The notes under the pieces: model-generated | Database searches by the model: none | What the model was told of the DNA's origin: nothing | What the model saw: only the letters and a program-made list of their open reading frames with translations | In this document: positions 51,033-60,285 of the stretch, one piece after another | Layout: each line of letters begins with the position of its first letter | How positions within the stretch are numbered: position 1 is the first letter of the stretch | From: Celeribacter ethanolicus | GTDB lineage: Bacteria > Pseudomonadota > Alphaproteobacteria > Rhodobacterales > Rhodobacteraceae | Length of the DNA stretch: 64,000 nt | Direction: 5' to 3' | Assembly: GCF_001550095.1 (NCBI RefSeq) | Contig: NZ_LRUC01000010.1 | Location: forward strand, 186,001 to 250,000 | Position numbers and translations under genes: made by a program

Positions 51033-51042
51033 TTTGATCAAA
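51033..51042. promoter_or_regulatory. Palindrome TTTGATCAAA upstream of ABC operon
   Basis: This 10-base palindrome is AT-rich in a GC-rich region and lies 73 bases before the ATPase ATG. An identical copy is at 55780, in front of the amidotransferase gene. It is a candidate operator of the cluster; no regulator is assigned. Confidence 0.5.
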
Positions 51043-51115
51043 ACTCGGGCAGAACCCCACGGCACTTCGCCGTTCATTGTTGCATCTGCTGAAAGTTTAG
51101 CCCTAACTCTTGGCA

Positions 51116-51907
51116 ATGTTGACCAATAACTCAAATCCCGCGACGCCCGTCATCGAGATCCGTGACCTGCACAAGGCCTACGGCGATCTCGAGGTTCTCA
51201 AGGGCGTGTCCATGACCGCCCCGCGCGGCCATGTGACCTCGCTTATCGGCTCCTCCGGTTCGGGCAAATCCACGCTTCTGCGCTGCGCCAACCTGTTGGA
51301 GGACAGCCAGCGGGGCGAAATTCTGTTCGAGGGCGAACCGATTTCGTGGAAGGGCGAGGGGCTGCATCGTCGCCCGTCTGACCCGAAACAGGTGATGCGC
51401 ATCCGCACCAACCTGTCGATGGTGTTCCAGCAATTCAATCTCTGGGCGCATCTGACCGTGCTTGAGAACGTCATGGAAGCGCCGATCACGGTGCTGGGTC
51501 GCGACCGCAAGGAGGTCGAGGGAAAGGCGCGGATGTATCTCGACAAGGTGGGCATCGGCGACAAATGCGACGTTTACCCGGCACAGATGTCCGGCGGGCA
51601 GCAGCAACGCGCGGCGATTGCGCGGGCGCTCTGCATGGAGCCGCGCGCACTTTTGTTCGACGAGCCGACCTCGGCGCTCGATCCGGAGCTTGAACAAGAA
51701 GTGATCAAGGTGATCAAGGCGCTGGCGGAAGAGGGCCGGACGATGATCATCGTGACGCACGACATGCGCATGGCCTCCGACATCTCGGACCATGTGATTT
51801 TCCTTCATCAGGGGCTGATCGAGGAAGAGGGACATCCCTCCGACCTGTTCGGCGCCCCGAAATCCGAACGCCTGAAACAGTTCCTGAGCGCGACTGTTCC
51901 GGCCTAA
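51116..51907 (+). CDS. Polar amino-acid ABC transporter ATP-binding protein
   Basis: 263 residues. Walker A LIGSSGSGKSTLLRCAN, Q-loop VFQQFNLWAHL, signature MSGGQQQRAAIARAL, Walker B ALLFDEPTSALDPEL and switch His VTHDMRMASD are intact, in the HisP/GlnQ/EhuA style. It powers the two permeases downstream. The ATG at 51116 was chosen; TTG 51110 is in frame. It is first in the ABC-GS operon. It may also serve the ATPase-lacking pair at 17642-19255, which is speculative. Confidence 0.94.
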   Translation: MLTNNSNPATPVIEIRDLHKAYGDLEVLKGVSMTAPRGHVTSLIGSSGSGKSTLLRCANLLEDSQRGEILFEGEPISWKGEGLHRRPSDPKQVMRIRTNLSMVFQQFNLWAHLTVLENVMEAPITVLGRDRKEVEGKARMYLDKVGIGDKCDVYPAQMSGGQQQRAAIARALCMEPRALLFDEPTSALDPELEQEVIKVIKALAEEGRTMIIVTHDMRMASDISDHVIFLHQGLIEEEGHPSDLFGAPKSERLKQFLSATVPA

Positions 51908-51940
51908 CCACAATCTGCGCTGACTATTGGGGAGTACCAC

Positions 51941-52654
51941 ATGAAGAAGATCCTTCTTTCCGCCGCCGCCCTGGCTTTGCTGGCCGGTGCAGCAAGCGCC
52001 GAGACCGTGCGTCTGGGCACGGAGGGCGCCTACCCTCCGTACAACTACATCGACGACAACGGCGAAGTGGCCGGGTTCGAACGCGTGCTGGGCGATGAGC
52101 TTTGCAAACGTGCCGAGCTTGAGTGCACCTGGGTGACCAACGACTGGGACAGCATCATCCCGAACCTGCTCTCCGGCAATTACGACACGATCATCGCCGG
52201 CATGTCGATCACCGACGAGCGCAAGGAGAAGGTGGACTTCTCGCAGAACTACACCCCGCCGTCGGCCTCCGCCTATGCGGCGATGAGCGAAGGCGTGGAT
52301 GTGGACGGCGGCATCGTCGCGGCGCAGGCCTCCACGATTCAGGCCGCGCATGTGGTGGAAACCGGTGCGACCCTGCTTGAATTCCCGAACTTCGAGGACA
52401 GCGTCGCCGCCGTGACCTCCGGCGAGGCCGATGCGGTTCTGGCCGACAAGGACACGTTGATGCCGGTCGTCGGCGAAGGCACCCTGATGTTCGTGGGCAA
52501 AGATGTTCCGCTCGGCGGCGGCATCGGCATGGCCTTCCGCAAATCCGACCCGGAGCTGCGCGCCAAATTCGACGCGGCGATCCAGTCCATGAAGGACGAC
52601 GGCTCCCTGAACGCGCTGATCAAGGAATGGCTCGAAGACAGCCCGACCTTCTGA
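51941..52654 (+). CDS. ABC transporter substrate-binding protein
   Basis: 237 residues, family 3. Signal peptide KKILLSAAALALLAGAASA (cleavage after residue 20). VRLGTEGAYPPYNYIDDNGEVAGFE, TIIAGMSITDERKEKVDFSQNY (substrate Arg/Asp region) and ADAVLADKDTLMPV are typical of arginine/ornithine/lysine or opine binding proteins. GGGGAG lies 8 bases before the ATG. The ligand cannot be read but must suit the downstream ligases. Confidence 0.93.
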   Translation: MKKILLSAAALALLAGAASAETVRLGTEGAYPPYNYIDDNGEVAGFERVLGDELCKRAELECTWVTNDWDSIIPNLLSGNYDTIIAGMSITDERKEKVDFSQNYTPPSASAYAAMSEGVDVDGGIVAAQASTIQAAHVVETGATLLEFPNFEDSVAAVTSGEADAVLADKDTLMPVVGEGTLMFVGKDVPLGGGIGMAFRKSDPELRAKFDAAIQSMKDDGSLNALIKEWLEDSPTF

Positions 52655-52795
52655 TCGGACCTTCCGAGGCGGGGCGTTCGCGCCCCGCCACACGTCCCCC
52701 TGCCCAACAGGTGTCCCATCTTTTCCTATTGCGCCGATCCTGACACGCTCGACCGCCTGCATTGGCTGAGCTGTTACCTGACGACCGGGAAGCAT

Positions 52796-53608
52796 ATGGC
52801 TTTCTACACCTCCTTCGGGACGGTGCTTTTGCTTCTGGCCGTGACCGCGCCGCTGGCGCTGGCCTTCGGCTTTGCTGCCGCCGCCGGATCACGGTCGCAT
52901 TTTTTCCCGCTGAAATGGCTGTCGAACATCTACATGGCCATCGTGCGCGGCGTGCCGGACATCGTGTTTTTCCTGTTTTTCGTCATCGCCCTCGATCAGG
53001 CCTTCGAATGGACGCGGCATCAGGTGCTCTGTCCCGACTGGGATCAGCCGATCCGGCAGGGCAATGATTTCATCGTCTGCCCGGCGGCCAAGCTGCCGCT
53101 GAATTCCGCGCCCGAGATCTATCACCAGATTTACGGCTTCGGCCTTGCCGTGCTGACCTTTGCCATCGTGTTCGGCGCCTTTGCGGGCAATGTGCTGGCG
53201 GGCGCGTTCAAGGCGGTGCCGCATGGTCAGATCGAGACGGCGGAGGCCTATGGCATGACCAAGCGCCAGACGTTTTGGCGCATCATGGTGCCGCAGATGT
53301 GGACCTATGCGATCCCCGGCCTGTCGAACCTCTGGATGGTGCTGATCAAGGCCACGCCTTTGCTGTTCCTGTTGGGGGTCGAGGATGTGGTCTATTGGGC
53401 GCGCGAGCTTGGCAACACCAAGACGGCGCGGTTCACCGATTATCCCCATGGCGACTGGCGGGTGTATTATTTCTTCGGGCTTTTGGTGTTCTACCTGCTG
53501 TTTACGAAAGTCTCGGAGATTGTGCTCGCCCGGATCACCCGCAAACTGTCGCGCGGTCAGGCCACCGCCGCCGGTGAGGCGATGCGCAAAGCGGGGGCCA
53601 CGGCATGA
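52796..53608 (+). CDS. ABC transporter permease (first)
   Basis: 270 residues from the first canonical start. Several membrane helices; an insert with RHQVLCPDWDQPIRQGNDF may be periplasmic. The EAA loop is IETAEAYGMTKRQTFWRIMVPQM. The frame is open upstream of 52796 and reads FSYCADPDTLDRLHWLSCY, protein-like and similar in place to the 35-residue leader of the sister permease. The true start may therefore be a non-standard ATC at 52718, 4 bases after AGGTG. Its stop overlaps the next start (ATGA). Confidence 0.9.
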   Translation: MAFYTSFGTVLLLLAVTAPLALAFGFAAAAGSRSHFFPLKWLSNIYMAIVRGVPDIVFFLFFVIALDQAFEWTRHQVLCPDWDQPIRQGNDFIVCPAAKLPLNSAPEIYHQIYGFGLAVLTFAIVFGAFAGNVLAGAFKAVPHGQIETAEAYGMTKRQTFWRIMVPQMWTYAIPGLSNLWMVLIKATPLLFLLGVEDVVYWARELGNTKTARFTDYPHGDWRVYYFFGLLVFYLLFTKVSEIVLARITRKLSRGQATAAGEAMRKAGATA

Positions 53609-54411
53609 GCTGTTCCGAAACGCTTGCAAGCTATGCCTTCCGGTCGCTGGGCTATGGCGAACGCCGCCTGCCGACCACGGAAATCACGCTCTGCGATCAG
53701 GTGACCCTGATCGGATCGGGGATGATCTGGAACATCTATTTCGGGATTCTGGCGATCCTGCTGGGGTTCTTCACCTCGCAGGCCTTGGCGCTGGCGAAGA
53801 CCTCTTCCAATCCGCTGATCCGCAAACCCGCCGAATGGTTCATTTTCGTGTTCCGCGGCTCGCCCTTGTTCATCCAGTTCTTCTTTGCCTATTTCCTGTT
53901 CCTGACGATCAAGCAATCGGTGCCGATGCTGAGCAATCTGACGAACGCATGGCTGGGGGCGGCGATCGTCTTGTGGTTCAACACCACGGCCTATTCCGCC
54001 GAGATTTTCTATGGCGCGCTGATGGCGATCCCCAAAGGCGATCTCGAGGCCGCCGATGCCTATGGCTTTACCGGGTTCAAACGCTTCCGCCGGATCGTCT
54101 GGCCGACCATGATGCGGCTCGCCTGGCCCGCCTATACGAACGAGGCGATTTTCATCTTCCACTCGACAACGCTCGTGTTCCTCTCCGGTTTCCCGGCCTT
54201 GCAGCAAAAGGGCGACGCCCTTTATTACGCCTCCTATTTTGCCGACAAGACCTTCAACCCGTTCATCCCCTACCCGATCCTCGCGGGCTATTTCGTCGTG
54301 GCGACGCTCTGCATCATCACGGTCTATGGCCTGATCGGAAAGCGGCTGAACCGCCACCTTCCGCAACCTCGCCAGAAACGGCCCCGGATGCTGGCGCAAA
54401 TCTTTCGTTAA
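53605..54411 (+). CDS. ABC transporter permease (second)
   Basis: 268 residues. Short leader (MSCSETLASYAFRSLGYGE), then membrane helices such as IYFGILAILLGFFTSQALAL. The EAA loop is LEAADAYGFTGFKRFRRIVWPTM. It pairs with the permease at 52796 to form the heterodimeric channel. It begins inside the stop of the first permease and ends 9 bases before the first ligase gene, so one mRNA is likely. Confidence 0.93.
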   Translation: MSCSETLASYAFRSLGYGERRLPTTEITLCDQVTLIGSGMIWNIYFGILAILLGFFTSQALALAKTSSNPLIRKPAEWFIFVFRGSPLFIQFFFAYFLFLTIKQSVPMLSNLTNAWLGAAIVLWFNTTAYSAEIFYGALMAIPKGDLEAADAYGFTGFKRFRRIVWPTMMRLAWPAYTNEAIFIFHSTTLVFLSGFPALQQKGDALYYASYFADKTFNPFIPYPILAGYFVVATLCIITVYGLIGKRLNRHLPQPRQKRPRMLAQIFR

Positions 54412-54420
54412 TGGTGTCTC

Positions 54421-55764
54421 ATGACTTCCCCCCACAGCTGGCTTGCCCAGAATCCCGACGTTAAAACCATCCGCATCGCGGCGGCTGACCTCAACGGTCA
54501 GGCCCGTGGCAAGCGCATGTCCGCGCGCTATGCCGACAAGGTGGAAACCGAGGGCACGCGCTTTCCCCTCTCCGTTCTGAACCTCGACATCTGGGGCGAG
54601 GATATCGAGAACAGCCCGCTGGTATTCGAGAGCGGCGACAAGGACGGGGTTTTGCTGCCGACCGAGCGCGGGTTCATTCCGATGCCCTGGCTCGAAGGGC
54701 CGACGGCGCTGTTGCAGATGTGGATGTTCCATGAGGACGGGCGGCCATTCGATGGCGATCCGCGTCAGGTGCTGGCGCGTGTGCTGGAGCGTTACAAGGC
54801 CAAGGGGCTGACCCCTGTTGTGGCGACCGAGCTGGAATTCTACCTTGTCGATGACAGTTCCCGTCAACTGCGCGTGCCGCGCTCGCCGCGCTCTGGCAAA
54901 CGCCGTCCGGGGGCGGAGACGCTGGCGCTCCGGGCGCTCGACTCGTTTGACCGGTTCTTCACCGATCTCTACGAGGCCTGCGAGGCGATGGACATCCCGG
55001 CGGATACCGCGATTTCCGAGGCGGGTCTCGGGCAGTTCGAGATCAACCTCGTGTATTCGCCCGATGCGCTCAAGGCCGCCGATGACGCGTGGCTGTTCAA
55101 ACTGATGGTCAAGGGGCTGGCGCGCAAACATGGCTTTGCCGCCTCCTTCATGGCGAAACCCTACGACGAATATGCCGGCAACGGCATGCACACCCATTTC
55201 TCGATGCTCGATGAGAACGGCGACAATATCTTTGACGATGGCACGGCCGCAGGCACGGATATGATGCGCCATGCGATTGCCGGGTGCCTTGCGGCGATCC
55301 CGGCGTCGACCATCCTGTTTGCACCGCATGGCAATTCCTATGACCGTCTGGTGCCCGGGGCGCACGCGCCGACCCGGATCTGCTGGGGCTATGACAACCG
55401 CACGGCGGCGGTGCGCGTGCCGGGCGGCTCGCACAAGGCGCGGCGGATCGAACACCGGGTGTCGGGCGGCGATGTGAACCCGCATCTGATGATCGCGGCC
55501 ATCCTTGGCGCGGCTTTGATCGGCATGGAAGACAAGATGACAGCCCCGCCACCGATCACCGGCAATGCCTATGCACAGGAATTGCCCGAGATGCCAGGCG
55601 ACTGGGGCACGGCGATTGCCGAGTTCGAAACCTCGGAGATGATGCGCCGCATCTTCCCGGCGGAACTGATCCAGAACCTGACGCTGACCAAACGTCAGGA
55701 GCTTCGCGACTGGATGGAGCTGACCCCCGAGGAGCAGGTGGAGCTTTATCTGGACACGGTCTGA
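54421..55764 (+). CDS. Glutamine synthetase-like ligase (PuuA/GlnA3 type), first copy
   Basis: 447 residues of the GS superfamily, ATP-dependent gamma-glutamyl-amine ligase type. N-terminal beta-grasp ends near TAL. Catalytic segments are VVATELEFYLVD, SEAGLGQFEINLVYS, GNGMHTHFSM, APHGNSYDRLVPG and RRIEHRVSGGDVNPHL, so metal, ATP and glutamate ligands are kept. It lacks the GS-I adenylylation-loop tyrosine context. Putative role: joining glutamate to an imported amine. A second GS-like gene is at 56567. Confidence 0.88.
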   Translation: MTSPHSWLAQNPDVKTIRIAAADLNGQARGKRMSARYADKVETEGTRFPLSVLNLDIWGEDIENSPLVFESGDKDGVLLPTERGFIPMPWLEGPTALLQMWMFHEDGRPFDGDPRQVLARVLERYKAKGLTPVVATELEFYLVDDSSRQLRVPRSPRSGKRRPGAETLALRALDSFDRFFTDLYEACEAMDIPADTAISEAGLGQFEINLVYSPDALKAADDAWLFKLMVKGLARKHGFAASFMAKPYDEYAGNGMHTHFSMLDENGDNIFDDGTAAGTDMMRHAIAGCLAAIPASTILFAPHGNSYDRLVPGAHAPTRICWGYDNRTAAVRVPGGSHKARRIEHRVSGGDVNPHLMIAAILGAALIGMEDKMTAPPPITGNAYAQELPEMPGDWGTAIAEFETSEMMRRIFPAELIQNLTLTKRQELRDWMELTPEEQVELYLDTV

Positions 55765-55779
55765 GCGGCCCCCGATGTT

Positions 55780-55789
55780 TTTGATCAAA
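55780..55789. promoter_or_regulatory. Palindrome TTTGATCAAA upstream of amidotransferase gene
   Basis: Identical to the site at 51033. It lies 83 bases before the ATG at 55872 and 16 bases after the first ligase stop. It suggests a second promoter under the same regulator within the cluster. Confidence 0.5.
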
Positions 55790-55871
55790 TTTCTGCGCTT
55801 TGCCGCCTGCCCTCTTGTCGGGTGCGCGGCGAAGCGCTAGCGTCGGATCATTCCAAAGCTCTTGGTGACTT

Positions 55872-56564
55872 ATGAAACTCGGCATTCTGCAATGCGGACA
55901 CGCGCCCGACCCCGTCGCGCAAATTCACGGGGATTTTCCACTGATGTTCAAACGGCTCTTCGACCGGCCAGATTTTTCCTATGAGGCCTGGGACGTCGAG
56001 CACATGGATTTCCCGAAAGGCCCGGAGGATGCCGACGCCTGGCTTTTGACCGGCTCGCGCCACGGGGCCTATGAGGATCATCCGTTCATCAAACCGCTCG
56101 AAGCGCTGATCCGCGACATTCATGCCTCCGGCCGACGCATGACCGGGATCTGTTTCGGCCATCAGATCATCGCCACGGCGCTTGGCGGCACGGTGGAGAA
56201 ATTCAAAGGCGGCTGGGCCGTCGGACGGCAGGCCTATGACATCGCGCCTCTGGGGCCGATCCATCTCAATGCCTGGCATCAGGATCAGGTCACGACGCTG
56301 CCCGAAGGAGCCGAAGTTCTGGGCGGCAACGCGTTCTGCGAAAACGCGGCGCTGGTCTATGGCGACAGCATCCTGACCATTCAGCCCCACCCGGAACTGA
56401 GCAATCCGATCATCGCCGATTACATTTCCTCGCGCATGGGCAATCCGGCCTATCCGCTCGCGCTCATGGAACGGGCGCAGGAAGAGAACACACTGCCCAC
56501 CGACGACAAACGCTTTGCCGATCTGATGGTGGATTTTCTGACCCGCGGCCGGGAGGCGCTTTGA
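55872..56564 (+). CDS. Class I glutamine amidotransferase-like hydrolase
   Basis: 230 residues. The nucleophile elbow MTGICFGHQIIATALGG has the catalytic Cys, and TIQPHPELSNPII supplies His and Glu. LLTGSRHGAYEDHPFIKPL is the usual oxyanion-side loop. The protein stands alone, not fused to a synthase, so it may hydrolyse a gamma-glutamyl intermediate, as PuuD does in putrescine breakdown, or supply ammonia to a ligase. It is 2 bases upstream of the second ligase ATG. Confidence 0.88.
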   Translation: MKLGILQCGHAPDPVAQIHGDFPLMFKRLFDRPDFSYEAWDVEHMDFPKGPEDADAWLLTGSRHGAYEDHPFIKPLEALIRDIHASGRRMTGICFGHQIIATALGGTVEKFKGGWAVGRQAYDIAPLGPIHLNAWHQDQVTTLPEGAEVLGGNAFCENAALVYGDSILTIQPHPELSNPIIADYISSRMGNPAYPLALMERAQEENTLPTDDKRFADLMVDFLTRGREAL

Positions 56565-56566
56565 CC

Positions 56567-57919
56567 ATGGAATTTCTCGACAAACTGCCGCAGGCGGCGC
56601 TGGACTTTATGGACGGGCGCAAACTCGACGAGGTGGAATGCATCGTCGCCGACCTGTCCGGCATCGCGCGCGGCAAGGCCATGCCCGCGATGAAATTCGA
56701 AAAGCAAAAGCATTTCTACCTGCCGAACTCGATCTTCTTGCAGTCGATCAACGGCGACTGGGTGGAAGATGCGGATGCGCCCTTCACCGAACCGGACATG
56801 GTTCTGGTTCCGGATTTCGAGACCGCGACCGCTGCCCCCTGGACCGCCGACTGCACGCTTCAGGTCATTCACGATGTGCTCGATCAAAGCGGCCAGATGG
56901 TCCCGGTCGCGCCGCGCAACGTGCTGAAACGCGTGGTGCAGCTTTATCACGAACAGGGCTGGGACCCGATCGTGGCGCCCGAAATGGAGTTCTTCCTCGT
57001 CGCGAAGAACACCGATCCGAACCAACCCGTCGAACCGCCGATTGGCCGCACGGGTCGCCGCGCGGCGCAGCGGCAGGCCTATTCCATGTCGGCGGTCGAT
57101 GAATACGGGCCGATCATTGACGACATTTACGACTTTGCCGAAGCGCAGGGGCTGGAGATCGACGGCATCCTGCAAGAGGGCGGCGCCGGGCAGATCGAGA
57201 TGAACCTGCGCCATGGCGATCCGGTGAAACTGGCCGATGAGATGTTCTATTTCAAACGGCTCATTCGCGAGGCCGCGCTACGTCACGATTGTTTCGCGAC
57301 TTTCATGGCGAAACCCATTCAGGACGAGCCGGGTTCGGCGATGCACATCCACCATTCGGTGGTGGACATCAACACGGGCGAGAACATCTTTTCCAACCCG
57401 GACGGATCGGAATCCGAGGCCTTCCTGCATTTCATCGCGGGGCTGCAAAACCACCTCGCCTCCACGATTGCGATCCATGCGCCCTATGTGAACAGCTATC
57501 GCCGTTACGTCCGCGATTTCGCCGCGCCGATCAACCTCGAATGGGGCCGCGACAACCGCACCACCGGGCTGCGCGTGCCGATCTCCGGCCCCGAGGCGCG
57601 GCGCATCGAGAACCGCCTGCCGGGGATGGACGTCAACCCCTACCTGTCGATTGCCGCCTCGCTGGCCTGTGGGTATCTCGGCCTCATGGAACGGCGCGAA
57701 CCGCGGGCGGAATATGTCGGCGACGCTTACGATTCCGCCGAGGGCATCCCGGAAACGCTCGCCTCCGCACTCGACCTGCTCGAAGGCGCGACACAGATGC
57801 AGGAGGTCTTGGGCAAGGACTTCGTGCGGGTCTACACCACTGTGAAACGGGCCGAGAACGAAGCTTATCTTCAGGTCATTTCCCCCTGGGAGCGCGAGCA
57901 TCTTTTGCTCAACGTGTGA
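56567..57919 (+). CDS. Glutamine synthetase-like ligase, second copy
   Basis: 450 residues, same superfamily as the protein at 54421 but only moderately alike. Active-site marks are IVAPEMEFFLVA, QEGGAGQIEMNLRHG, PGSAMHIHHSV, VNSYRRYV and RRIENRLPGMDVNPYL. The ATG at 56567 is used; a TTG at 56561 overlapping the preceding stop is an alternative. A terminator follows. Two ligases in one cluster suggest two amine substrates or two steps. Confidence 0.88.
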   Translation: MEFLDKLPQAALDFMDGRKLDEVECIVADLSGIARGKAMPAMKFEKQKHFYLPNSIFLQSINGDWVEDADAPFTEPDMVLVPDFETATAAPWTADCTLQVIHDVLDQSGQMVPVAPRNVLKRVVQLYHEQGWDPIVAPEMEFFLVAKNTDPNQPVEPPIGRTGRRAAQRQAYSMSAVDEYGPIIDDIYDFAEAQGLEIDGILQEGGAGQIEMNLRHGDPVKLADEMFYFKRLIREAALRHDCFATFMAKPIQDEPGSAMHIHHSVVDINTGENIFSNPDGSESEAFLHFIAGLQNHLASTIAIHAPYVNSYRRYVRDFAAPINLEWGRDNRTTGLRVPISGPEARRIENRLPGMDVNPYLSIAASLACGYLGLMERREPRAEYVGDAYDSAEGIPETLASALDLLEGATQMQEVLGKDFVRVYTTVKRAENEAYLQVISPWEREHLLLNV

Positions 57920-57939: not shown

Positions 57940-57965
57940 AAAGGGGGCCGATGCGCCCCCTTTTT
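57940..57965 (+). terminator. Rho-independent terminator
   Basis: AAAGGGGGC/GCCCCCTTT with loop CGATGC, then TTTTT. It ends the ligase operon. Confidence 0.85.
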
Positions 57966-58083: not shown

Positions 58084-59286
58084 ATGAGTCTCGGGCCCAA
58101 TGTCTACGACGCCGAACCGATCCCCGAAGAAGCGCGCGAGATTGTCGAACAGCTTCTGAGCTCGGGCGATCTGTTCCGCTACACCGCGCCGGGCAATGCG
58201 CCCGTGACGCTGTTGGAGCGCGAATTCGCCGAGATGCTGGGTGCGAAATACGCTCTTGCCGTGGCCTCCTGCTCCGCCGCGCTGTTCCTGTCGCTCAAGG
58301 CGCTGAACCTGCCGCGTGACGCCAAGGTTCTGATCCCGGCCTTCACCTTTGCCGCCGTGCCCTCCTCCATCGTGCATGCCGATTGCAAGCCGGTTCTGGT
58401 CGAGTGCAATGACAATTACCGGATCGACCTCGACGATTTCCACGCCAAGATTGAAGAGGCCGATGCGGTGATGATTTCCCACATGCGCGGCCATACCTCT
58501 GACATGGATGCGATCAAGGCCGCCTGCGACGCCAAGGGCATTCCGCTCATCGAAGACGCCGCCCACTCGCTCGGCACCGTCTGGGACGGCCAGAACATCG
58601 GCACCATCGGTAAAATCGGCTGTTTCTCTTTCCAGTCTTACAAGCTTTTGAATGCCGGCGAAGGCGGGATCATGATCACCGACGATCCCGAAATCATGGC
58701 CCGCGCCGTGATTATGTCTGGCGCTTACGAACACAACTGGGCGAAGCACAACCCACAGCGCGACAATGCGCTCTCCGCCGAATTCGCCAAGTGGCAAAAC
58801 CAACTGCCGCTCTACAACACCCGGCTGTCGAACATGTCCGCCGTGCTGGTGCGCCCGCAGTTGAAAGAGGTGCCGCGCCGTGTCGCCGATGGGCGTCGCA
58901 ACCACGATTACACCGCCGCGCGTCTTGAAACCTCGCCGCATCTGACCGTGCCCGCGAAGCTCGACAAGGAGCTGCGTGCGCCGGACAGCCTCCAGTTCAA
59001 CCTCGTGGACTTCTCCCGCGAAGAGGCGCTGGCCTTCCAGAGCGCCGCCAAAGCGCGCGGTGTGTCCGTTCAGGTCTTTGGCCTCTCGACCGACAACGCC
59101 CGCGCCTTCTGGAACTGGCAGTTCCTGGGCGAAACGCCCGATCTGCCGAAAACCCGCGAGATGCTGTCGAAAGCCTGCGACACCCGGCTTCCGGCGCGTT
59201 TGACCGAAGAGGATTGCGACTTCATCGCCGACGCACTTCTGGCCGCGGCCGGAGAGGTCAAGGGCGTGCGGGTCGCGGCGGAATAA
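58084..59286 (+). CDS. DegT/DnrJ/EryC1/StrS-type PLP aminotransferase
   Basis: 400 residues. PLP-binding segments are AVASCSAALFLSLKALNL, LIPAFTFAAVPSSIVHADCKP, LIEDAAHSLGTVWDGQ, and the Schiff-base lysine at about residue 187 in FSFQSYKLLNAGEGG. Family members transaminate sugars or small ketones. AAGGTG precedes the ATG. It follows the ligase operon after a terminator, so it has its own promoter; connection to the cluster is by place only. No sugar-nucleotide genes are near. Confidence 0.88.
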   Translation: MSLGPNVYDAEPIPEEAREIVEQLLSSGDLFRYTAPGNAPVTLLEREFAEMLGAKYALAVASCSAALFLSLKALNLPRDAKVLIPAFTFAAVPSSIVHADCKPVLVECNDNYRIDLDDFHAKIEEADAVMISHMRGHTSDMDAIKAACDAKGIPLIEDAAHSLGTVWDGQNIGTIGKIGCFSFQSYKLLNAGEGGIMITDDPEIMARAVIMSGAYEHNWAKHNPQRDNALSAEFAKWQNQLPLYNTRLSNMSAVLVRPQLKEVPRRVADGRRNHDYTAARLETSPHLTVPAKLDKELRAPDSLQFNLVDFSREEALAFQSAAKARGVSVQVFGLSTDNARAFWNWQFLGETPDLPKTREMLSKACDTRLPARLTEEDCDFIADALLAAAGEVKGVRVAAE

Positions 59287-59340: not shown

Positions 59341-60285
59341 TTACAGAATCTTGAGATAGCCGCCGAGCCACGGATAGGTCGCAACCATTGGATCGACCAC
59401 CTGCGCCTGCAACAGCGGAACGAGTTGATCGGCCACTTCACGCGCCATTTCCGACATGCCGTCGTGGCGCACGGTCAGCGAGATTTGCCGCGACAAGGGC
59501 GCGACCGGAAGGGGAATGGCCTCGATCTGGTCGGCATAGCGTCCGGCGTTGAGCACCCCCAGAGAAGACAGGATCGTCCAGCCCGTGCCGCCCGCCACCA
59601 TGGCGATCATCGCGCGGTAACTGTCGAGCTCGAAGCGATGAGTGAGCGTCATGCCCTGCACTGCCAGATGTTCGGCGAGCATCCGTCCCATGGCATGGCG
59701 GCGGGTGTACTGGATCAGCGGCAGCTCCTTCACCGCCGCATGGCGCCCTTTCGGCACCACGGCCACGAACGGATCCTGCAACAAGGGATGGCTCTCCGAC
59801 CAGTCCCCACCGTCACTGAGTTCGGCGGCGACGATCACATCGAGCGCACGGTTTTCCAGCCGGTCGAGCAACCGGTGCGACGGACCGGTCTCAAGCTCGA
59901 AGCGGGTTTCGGTGAGACGATCCGCCATCTGGGTGATCAGCAAGGGGGTCACGGAGGATTCGAAATCCTCCACCATGCCGAGACGCAATTGCGCGAGATG
60001 GCTCAGATCCAGCCCGGCGATCTCGGAACGCGCACGGGCCGCTTCGAGCAGGATGCTCTGCGCCCGGCGCCGCAGAACCCGGCCCGCAGGCGTCAGCGAC
60101 ATCGGCCGTTCACGACGGTTGATCAGTTCGGTGCCCAGCGCGGTCTCCAGATTGGAGATCTGTTGCGACACCGCAGAGGGCGAGGCACCGAGACGCTTGG
60201 CAGCCGCGGACACGGAGCCCTCCTCGGAGACGGCGAGAAACACCTCGACACCCCAAAGCGTCAAACGTCCGACCTTGTCGCTCAT
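59341..60285 (-). CDS. LysR family transcriptional regulator
   Basis: 314 residues. The winged HTH is at residues 10-70 (WGVEVFLAVSEEGSVSAAAK, then SAVSQQISNLETALG). The effector domain follows from about residue 95 (LRLGMVEDFESSVTPLLI). It is convergent with the DegT gene and is the only classical regulator beside the ABC-ligase cluster, so it may control it. LysR sites are usually T-N11-A, and the TTTGATCAAA palindromes do not match this well. A dispersed-repeat copy lies directly upstream. Confidence 0.92.
   Translation of the reverse strand: MSDKVGRLTLWGVEVFLAVSEEGSVSAAAKRLGASPSAVSQQISNLETALGTELINRRERPMSLTPAGRVLRRRAQSILLEAARARSEIAGLDLSHLAQLRLGMVEDFESSVTPLLITQMADRLTETRFELETGPSHRLLDRLENRALDVIVAAELSDGGDWSESHPLLQDPFVAVVPKGRHAAVKELPLIQYTRRHAMGRMLAEHLAVQGMTLTHRFELDSYRAMIAMVAGGTGWTILSSLGVLNAGRYADQIEAIPLPVAPLSRQISLTVRHDGMSEMAREVADQLVPLLQAQVVDPMVATYPWLGGYLKIL

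Follow-up and report, generated by a model that had tools for sequence, protein, structure and literature searches.

The closest described systems to the locus reported here are the spuI-spuABC and pauA/pauB/pauC/pauD genes of Pseudomonas aeruginosa and P. putida and the puuPADRCBE genes of Escherichia coli. The Pseudomonas genes reportedly form "divergent spuABCDEFGH-spuI operons", in the words of a published title, an order matched by one Pseudomonas-like locus in our data (L295); we recognised such loci by the order of two binding proteins, SpuC, SpuB, a PuuD-like SpuA and a divergent SpuI. One study presents PauB and SpuC as alternative deaminases of the gamma-glutamylation pathway (PMC10606097). 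We analysed a 64,000-nucleotide window of Celeribacter ethanolicus (contig NZ_LRUC01000010.1, positions 186,001 to 250,000 of the forward strand; coordinates below are those of the window), in which seven open and contiguous reading frames on the + strand (51110-57919) encode the ATPase of an ATP-binding cassette (ABC) transporter, a periplasmic binding protein (SBP), two permeases (PermA and PermB), a glutamine-synthetase-like (GS-like) ligase (GS1), a class I glutamine amidotransferase (GAT) and a second GS-like ligase (GS2). An earlier prediction made from the sequence alone (the original prediction) had named these families in this row, and our searches bear it out. The intergenic gaps are short, with 4-base overlaps between PermA and PermB and between GAT and GS2. 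We think it fairly likely that these genes form a Rhodobacteraceae-wide operon for amine catabolism by gamma-glutamylation, a variant of the PauA/PauB/PauD route that is split over two loci in this genome. The suggestion of a possible new gamma-glutamylation cluster is upheld by the clade of the ligases and by the conserved gene set, but not in its details concerning a missing oxidase and aldehyde dehydrogenase, PuuD and an adjoining DegT gene.

In the route that we propose, a HisJ-type transporter would import a basic amino acid or a close relative of one. GS1 and GS2, for which clade and a changed flap residue point to an amine-ligase role, would join the gamma-carboxyl group of glutamate to an amine; a diamine or polyamine made from, or taken up with, the cargo is the likeliest acceptor. 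The glutamylated product would be converted to an aldehyde by a PuuB/PauB-like flavin adenine dinucleotide (FAD) oxidase, encoded beside GS2 in most relatives and on another contig here, and the aldehyde to an acid by an aldehyde dehydrogenase; GAT would then cut off the glutamate, a step ascribed to PauD2, and GabT and GabD would lead on to succinate. The genes, their order, their conservation, the clades of the ligases and the in-or-out distribution of the oxidase are observations, from which we infer the reactions and the substrate. Compared with the Pseudomonas genes, the apparent likeness lies in the SpuI- and SpuB-position ligase types, the PauB-like oxidase of relatives, a PauD2-like hydrolase and a SpuC-like aminotransferase at the second locus of this genome. 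The Pseudomonas transporter, however, is SpuDEFGH (Pot type) whereas a HisJ-type amino-acid transporter is found here, the hydrolase SpuA is of PuuD type whereas GAT is a class I amidotransferase, and GS1 is only distantly SpuI-like. As for the E. coli system, this genome has counterparts of the ligase, the DAO-type oxidase, the aldehyde dehydrogenase, the hydrolase and (PuuR-like) the regulator, but at two loci, with an ABC importer in place of PuuP and with an amidotransferase without a PuuD match (E 1e-5). The binding protein has the fold and anchor residues of the LAO/HisJ type and is 68% identical to PDB entry 3i6v, but its gene stands with those of glutamylation-type ligases and not solely in an operon for amino-acid uptake. 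A literature search by titles and the beginnings of abstracts found no publication naming or describing the cluster.

The evidence for an amine-ligase role comes from GS1 (54421-55764) and GS2 (56561-57919), both with a PF00120 (Gln-synt_C) domain. The original prediction had proposed a phylogeny with PuuA and GmaS. Our 63-row tree contained E. coli PuuA as its one characterised row, Pseudomonas-like rows assigned by spu gene order, and this genome's own GlnA and GmaS-like ligase (the latter label taken from methylamine-type neighbour genes); IpuC and the aniline ligases lay outside its scope. One group (33 rows, 100/100) united GS1 with E. coli PuuA, ligases in the SpuI position and ligases adjoining PuuB/PuuC-like genes; another (25 rows, 98/98) united GS2 with a ligase adjoining a SpuC-like gene in two Pseudomonas-like genomes. 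GlnA, the GmaS-like ligase and three others stood outside both groups. The GlnA and GmaS-like rows have long branches, and any closeness between them in this tree may be spurious; a 59-row tree lacking four long rows, GlnA included, gave the same two groups for GS1 and GS2. GS1 is 36% identical to E. coli PuuA, and GS2 is 51% and 49% identical to the SpuB-position ligases of the two Pseudomonas-like genomes. In an alignment with PuuA and the genome's own GlnA, both ligases keep the catalytic metal, ATP and glutamate residues, as originally noted. The flap glutamate, which handles ammonia in GlnA, is replaced by His315 in GS1 and by Ala in GS2. Because they score 186 and 185 bits with the gamma-glutamylputrescine synthetase model NF045547, under its curated cut-off of 650, we would not file them as PuuA proper; they appear to belong with the PuuA/SpuI/SpuB-type amine ligases, apart from GlnA, and glutamylation of an amine is predicted for both. 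The genome (4.2 Mb, 52 contigs) has five PF00120 matches; besides GS1 and GS2 these are a presumed GlnA (449 bits), a ligase adjoining methylamine-type genes and a fifth GS-like ligase of 491 aa with a long tree branch, which adjoins TRAP-transporter-like genes on contig C41 (C41:7000-25000, L105).

Conservation was examined in two sets of loci, neither of them random and both counted with gene identity thresholds of our own choice: 60 family loci, chosen among 119 genomes with GAT, mostly in descending order of GAT score and avoiding short contigs, and 80 named loci, the best GS1 matches of at least 592 confirmed, of which 64 are long (at least 17.9 kb). Of 120 family genomes, 119 had a GAT match (E 1e-20), at identities down to 39%, the weakest being distant and maybe another gene; among 299 genomes sampled across the phylum, 63 had one (1e-18). 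Within the 60 family loci, the four transporter genes were present in 52, GS1 in 52, GAT in 59, GS2 in 56, the FAD oxidoreductase in 51 and DegT in 37. Transporter, GS1, GAT and GS2 occurred jointly in 44 of these loci and in 49 of the 64 long named loci, so that the gene order extends well beyond this strain, a point on which the original prediction had staked its case. Gene order is nearly constant across the family, with one rearranged locus (L036). Among the matches listed, from which records very near to the window may have been left out, the closest to GS1 are in Celeribacter neptunius and Celeribacter sp. PS-C1 (both 92%). As the same genes recur across the family, nearly always in the same order, the cluster is not a chance arrangement. 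The near-universal GAT and the joint occurrence of transporter, GS1, GAT and GS2 in most loci make this a probable core route for nitrogen and carbon in an abundant bacterial family; annotation at present calls its genes "glutamine synthetase" and "amidotransferase".

The original prediction saw no oxidase or aldehyde dehydrogenase. For the window this stands as regards the oxidase, for which a tblastn search (the aldehyde dehydrogenase was not searched there) with the oxidases of relatives gave chance-level matches only; we accordingly rejected a decayed oxidase between GS2 and DegT, where the gene lies as a rule in other family members. Two further Celeribacter loci (L189 and L190) also lack it. 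A pathway without these enzymes is not borne out, since most family loci hold the oxidase and both genes are present in this genome on contig C41, outside the window. The C41 oxidase is 55% and 39% identical to the cluster genes of two relatives (L066 and L037), and PF01266 (DAO) was found in all three relatives' oxidases scanned; identity to E. coli PuuB is 39% for the own-genome copy, 43% for one relative and 31% for another. On C41 the oxidase stands in a row with the aldehyde dehydrogenase and a class III, SpuC-like aminotransferase, which is 65% identical to one adjoining a SpuB-type ligase of a Pseudomonas-like genome. Adjoining these are a PuuR-like regulator, a GabT-like gamma-aminobutyrate (GABA) transaminase and a GabD-like succinate-semialdehyde dehydrogenase, the latter two scoring over a cut-off. 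We infer that the C41 oxidase and aldehyde dehydrogenase act in the pathway of the cluster. When the own-genome oxidase was searched against the 120 family genomes at E 1e-100, it was found only within 6 kb of the best GAT match in 73, only elsewhere in 36 and at both places in 2. Placement is thus near-exclusive, which argues that the cluster copy and the elsewhere copy serve the same step. Nine of the 60 family loci lack the oxidase; one of these is cut by a contig end, and in all eight others (G007, G010, G031, G036, G038, G053, G076 and G089) the genome carries it elsewhere. We fetched 20 elsewhere loci (19 of the 36 "elsewhere only" and one of the two "both"). A GS2-like ligase, a SpuC-like aminotransferase or both lay beside the oxidase in 13; six of the 20 also had a second PuuA- or GS1-like ligase, and five had a GAT-like gene in the stretch. 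The pairing of SpuC and oxidase at these loci fits the portrayal of PauB and SpuC as alternative deaminases in the pathway study cited above (PMC10606097). The in-or-out distribution of the oxidase offers a direct and testable link between the cluster and a polyamine/GABA locus.

The amidotransferase (55872-56564; PF00117) had been compared with PuuD; it appears to resemble PauD2 instead. We rejected PuuD/SpuA identity on the basis of the PF00117 domain and a blastp search against E. coli PuuD, which gave no match at E 1e-5. Among NCBIfam models PRK05665 scores best, at 125 bits against a cut-off of 309, and the Cys-His-Glu residues are kept (Cys94, His173 and Glu175, as motif positions). In one study, a 5-aminovalerate route from cadaverine was built with the P. 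putida genes spuI, spuC, kauB and pauD2, the last described as a "glutamine amidotransferase class I" (PMC8274714). Translated, the pauD2 primer given there opens with MSLRICI; in a Pseudomonas-like locus (L164) the GAT homologue has these residues close to the beginning of its longest reading frame, from an internal Met onwards. GAT is probably PauD2-like and a gamma-glutamyl hydrolase.

The transporter comprises a HisP-like ATPase (51110-51907; PF00005; best NCBIfam HisP, 330 bits, under the cut-off of 466), whose first listed start is TTG 51110 (the originally proposed start of the cluster, 51033, falls upstream of it), an SBP of LAO/HisJ type (51941-52654; PF00497, SBP_bac_3), a HisQ/ArtQ-like PermA (52718-53608; PF00528) and a HisM/ArtM-like PermB (53605-54411; PF00528). 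The closest PDB entry to the SBP is 3i6v of Silicibacter pomeroyi (root-mean-square deviation 1.3 A to the predicted model), followed by LAO-type proteins; the model was poor without an alignment and reached a pLDDT of 91 with 33 rows. We take the ligand of 3i6v to be lysine, although its title breaks off at "in complex wi". SBP residues E28, R94 and D169 align with D11, R77 and D161 of LAO, in a numbering that is partly our assumption (LAO mutants are named in PDB titles). R94 and D169 would anchor an alpha-amino acid and E28 is the side-chain acid; E28 and R94 are invariant and D169 is at least 90% conserved in sets of 35 and 33 sequences. These anchors, and the high identity to 3i6v, make a basic alpha-amino acid the likely cargo rather than a polyamine.

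Several observations weigh against the proposed operon. The transporter is of amino-acid type, while in Ruegeria pomeroyi the uptake of cadaverine, putrescine and spermidine goes through potFGHI, according to one report (PMC10130141). Among NCBIfam models, the oxidases match L-pipecolate oxidase AmaA best, at 164 to 231 bits with a cut-off of 600, and not a PuuB model; the PuuR-like protein falls short of its cut-off (130 against 211 bits), and the aldehyde dehydrogenase reaches 313 bits with the PuuC model, whose cut-off is 850, other dehydrogenase models scoring better. Nine of the 120 family genomes lack the oxidase at E 1e-100; four of the 36 "elsewhere" oxidases lie 6.6 to 10.3 kb from GAT on the same contig (G013, G014, G060 and G094), at least one such case (G088) looks like a contig break, and seven of the 20 elsewhere loci have neither a GS2-like nor a SpuC-like neighbour. 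Lastly, 13 of the 64 long named loci (10 Paracoccus and 3 Thioclava) hold the transporter and GS1 without GAT, GS2 or oxidase within 9 kb on each side, and 8 of the 60 family loci lack a labelled GS1; the seven genes are therefore not one obligate unit. Since transporter and GS1 stand alone in these Paracoccus and Thioclava loci, and GAT, GS2 and oxidase are kept together at a second, separate locus in Paracoccus denitrificans, the operon is made of two modules that are usually joined. This arrangement lends itself to a rival explanation in which two independent units, an importer with GS1 and a SpuB/PauB/PauD2-like polyamine unit of GAT, GS2 and oxidase, lie side by side with no shared substrate. 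The second unit also occurs without GS1 in L047, L053, L064 and L075. Such independence is possible but, in our view, doubtful: it does not account well for the joint occurrence of the four components in most loci of both sets, nor for the position of GS1 between transporter and GAT in nearly all joint loci.

In another rival reading, GS1 would glutamylate the basic amino acid as imported (such as lysine or ornithine) and not a diamine formed by decarboxylation. GS1 accompanies the transporter even without GAT and GS2 beside it, and the binding protein keeps anchors for the alpha-amino and alpha-carboxyl groups. A plasmid cluster of Pseudosulfitobacter (L119, NZ_CP086932.1) likewise brings together two GS-like ligases, one of them GS1-like, a PuuB-like oxidase, a binding protein annotated as of lysine/arginine/ornithine type with its permeases, and a gamma-glutamyltransferase. 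We know of no PuuA/PauA-group ligase, however, that takes an alpha-amino acid as acceptor, and of the two PF02784 proteins in the genome one, of 380 aa, is a stand-alone candidate for the decarboxylase that would supply the diamine, so that we regard an amino-acid acceptor as unlikely. A search of the genome for PF01276 gave no match. For R. pomeroyi, one paper describes lysine degradation via saccharopine and lysine dehydrogenase routes (PMC4334477). Slightly less likely still is an undescribed route in which the transporter and GS1 would import and gamma-glutamylate a basic amino acid as such, with GS2, oxidase and GAT then oxidising and releasing it; if true, a gamma-glutamyl route for basic amino acids would be common to Rhodobacteraceae.

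The GS-like ligase superfamily is broad in substrate, and the cluster might instead act on an aromatic or short monoamine, as do GmaS, IpuC and the aniline ligases. We consider this improbable: in the trees both ligases fall away from the presumed GmaS of this genome, and the oxidase gene neighbours SpuC-, PuuR- and GABA-pathway genes on C41, with a SpuC- or GS2-like gene beside it in most of the other loci fetched. That either ligase, or both, is a regular glutamine synthetase working on ammonia, which the original prediction had named as fatal to its reading, is highly improbable and was rejected, for although GlnA is the best NCBIfam model by bits for both (217 and 254 bits), both are far under the cut-off of 429, neither clusters with this genome's GlnA in the tree or keeps the flap glutamate, and the genome holds a separate and stronger PF00120 match taken as GlnA.

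Downstream of GS2 lies a DegT-family pyridoxal phosphate (PLP) aminotransferase gene (58084-59286, + strand; PF01041; presumed PLP lysine motif kept), which had been thought a possible member of the cluster. A terminator-like hairpin with a T run is found directly 3' of GS2 (57940-57965, + strand; minimum free energy -18.1 kcal/mol, z -3.3), as are hairpins in L189 and L190 (z -4.0 and -2.9). With such a hairpin between GS2 and DegT in three Celeribacter genomes, DegT is probably a separate unit in this genus, and we rejected it as an obligate member because it is also present in only 37 of the 60 family and 25 of the 64 long named loci. The window hairpin was not listed by a terminator pattern scan, which found 8 sites against a mean of 8.7 in shuffled sequence and hence no excess. 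A convergent LysR regulator gene follows (59341-60285, - strand; PF00126/PF03466), a label found in 10 of the 60 family and 10 of the 64 named loci.

Two observations concern associations of the cluster in other genomes. A phosphonate-binding-like gene (PF12974) lies between TerB and the ATPase in 35 of the 60 family loci (a count of labels, with two members scanned; e.g., L039:3233-3949). The window has only about 215 bases between TerB and the ATPase and no such gene at that place, and one query of the own genome, in a search that had no positive control, gave no match; we rejected the gene as an essential part. A Pseudomonas-like genome (G177, locus L299) carries a second SpuB-type ligase between two PuuB-like oxidases together with a polar-amino-acid ABC transporter, an arrangement that echoes the association in the cluster.

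A final observation concerns the start of PermA. The listed reading frame begins at ATG 52796, but the conserved N-terminus is encoded upstream of it, and no ATG, GTG or TTG is found at the conserved start in the window; the codon there is ATC (52718-52720), and the start is probably ATC 52718. We searched 141 loci (L036-L095 and L189-L268) and matched 131, the window included, of which 128 were readable. The codons at the conserved start were ATG in 85, ATT in 23, ATC in 15, GTG in 3, and TTG and GCG in 1 each. Thirty-two of the 38 loci with ATT or ATC had no usual start in frame upstream. By comparison, starts of GAT were ATG in 115 and GTG in 3 (n = 118), and those of SBP were ATG in 94 and GTG in 1 (95 aligned of 128); GS1, GS2, the ATPase and in part PermB have variable N-termini and were unusable as controls. 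At a distance of 5 to 14 bases, a strong Shine-Dalgarno-like 4-mer preceded the start in 26 of the 38 ATT/ATC loci versus 6 of the 85 ATG loci (Fisher P 3.6e-12, a value that ignores the relatedness of the loci and comes from the stricter and second of two motif sets tried). PermA may thus recurrently use AUU and AUC start codons, possibly with a regulatory role.

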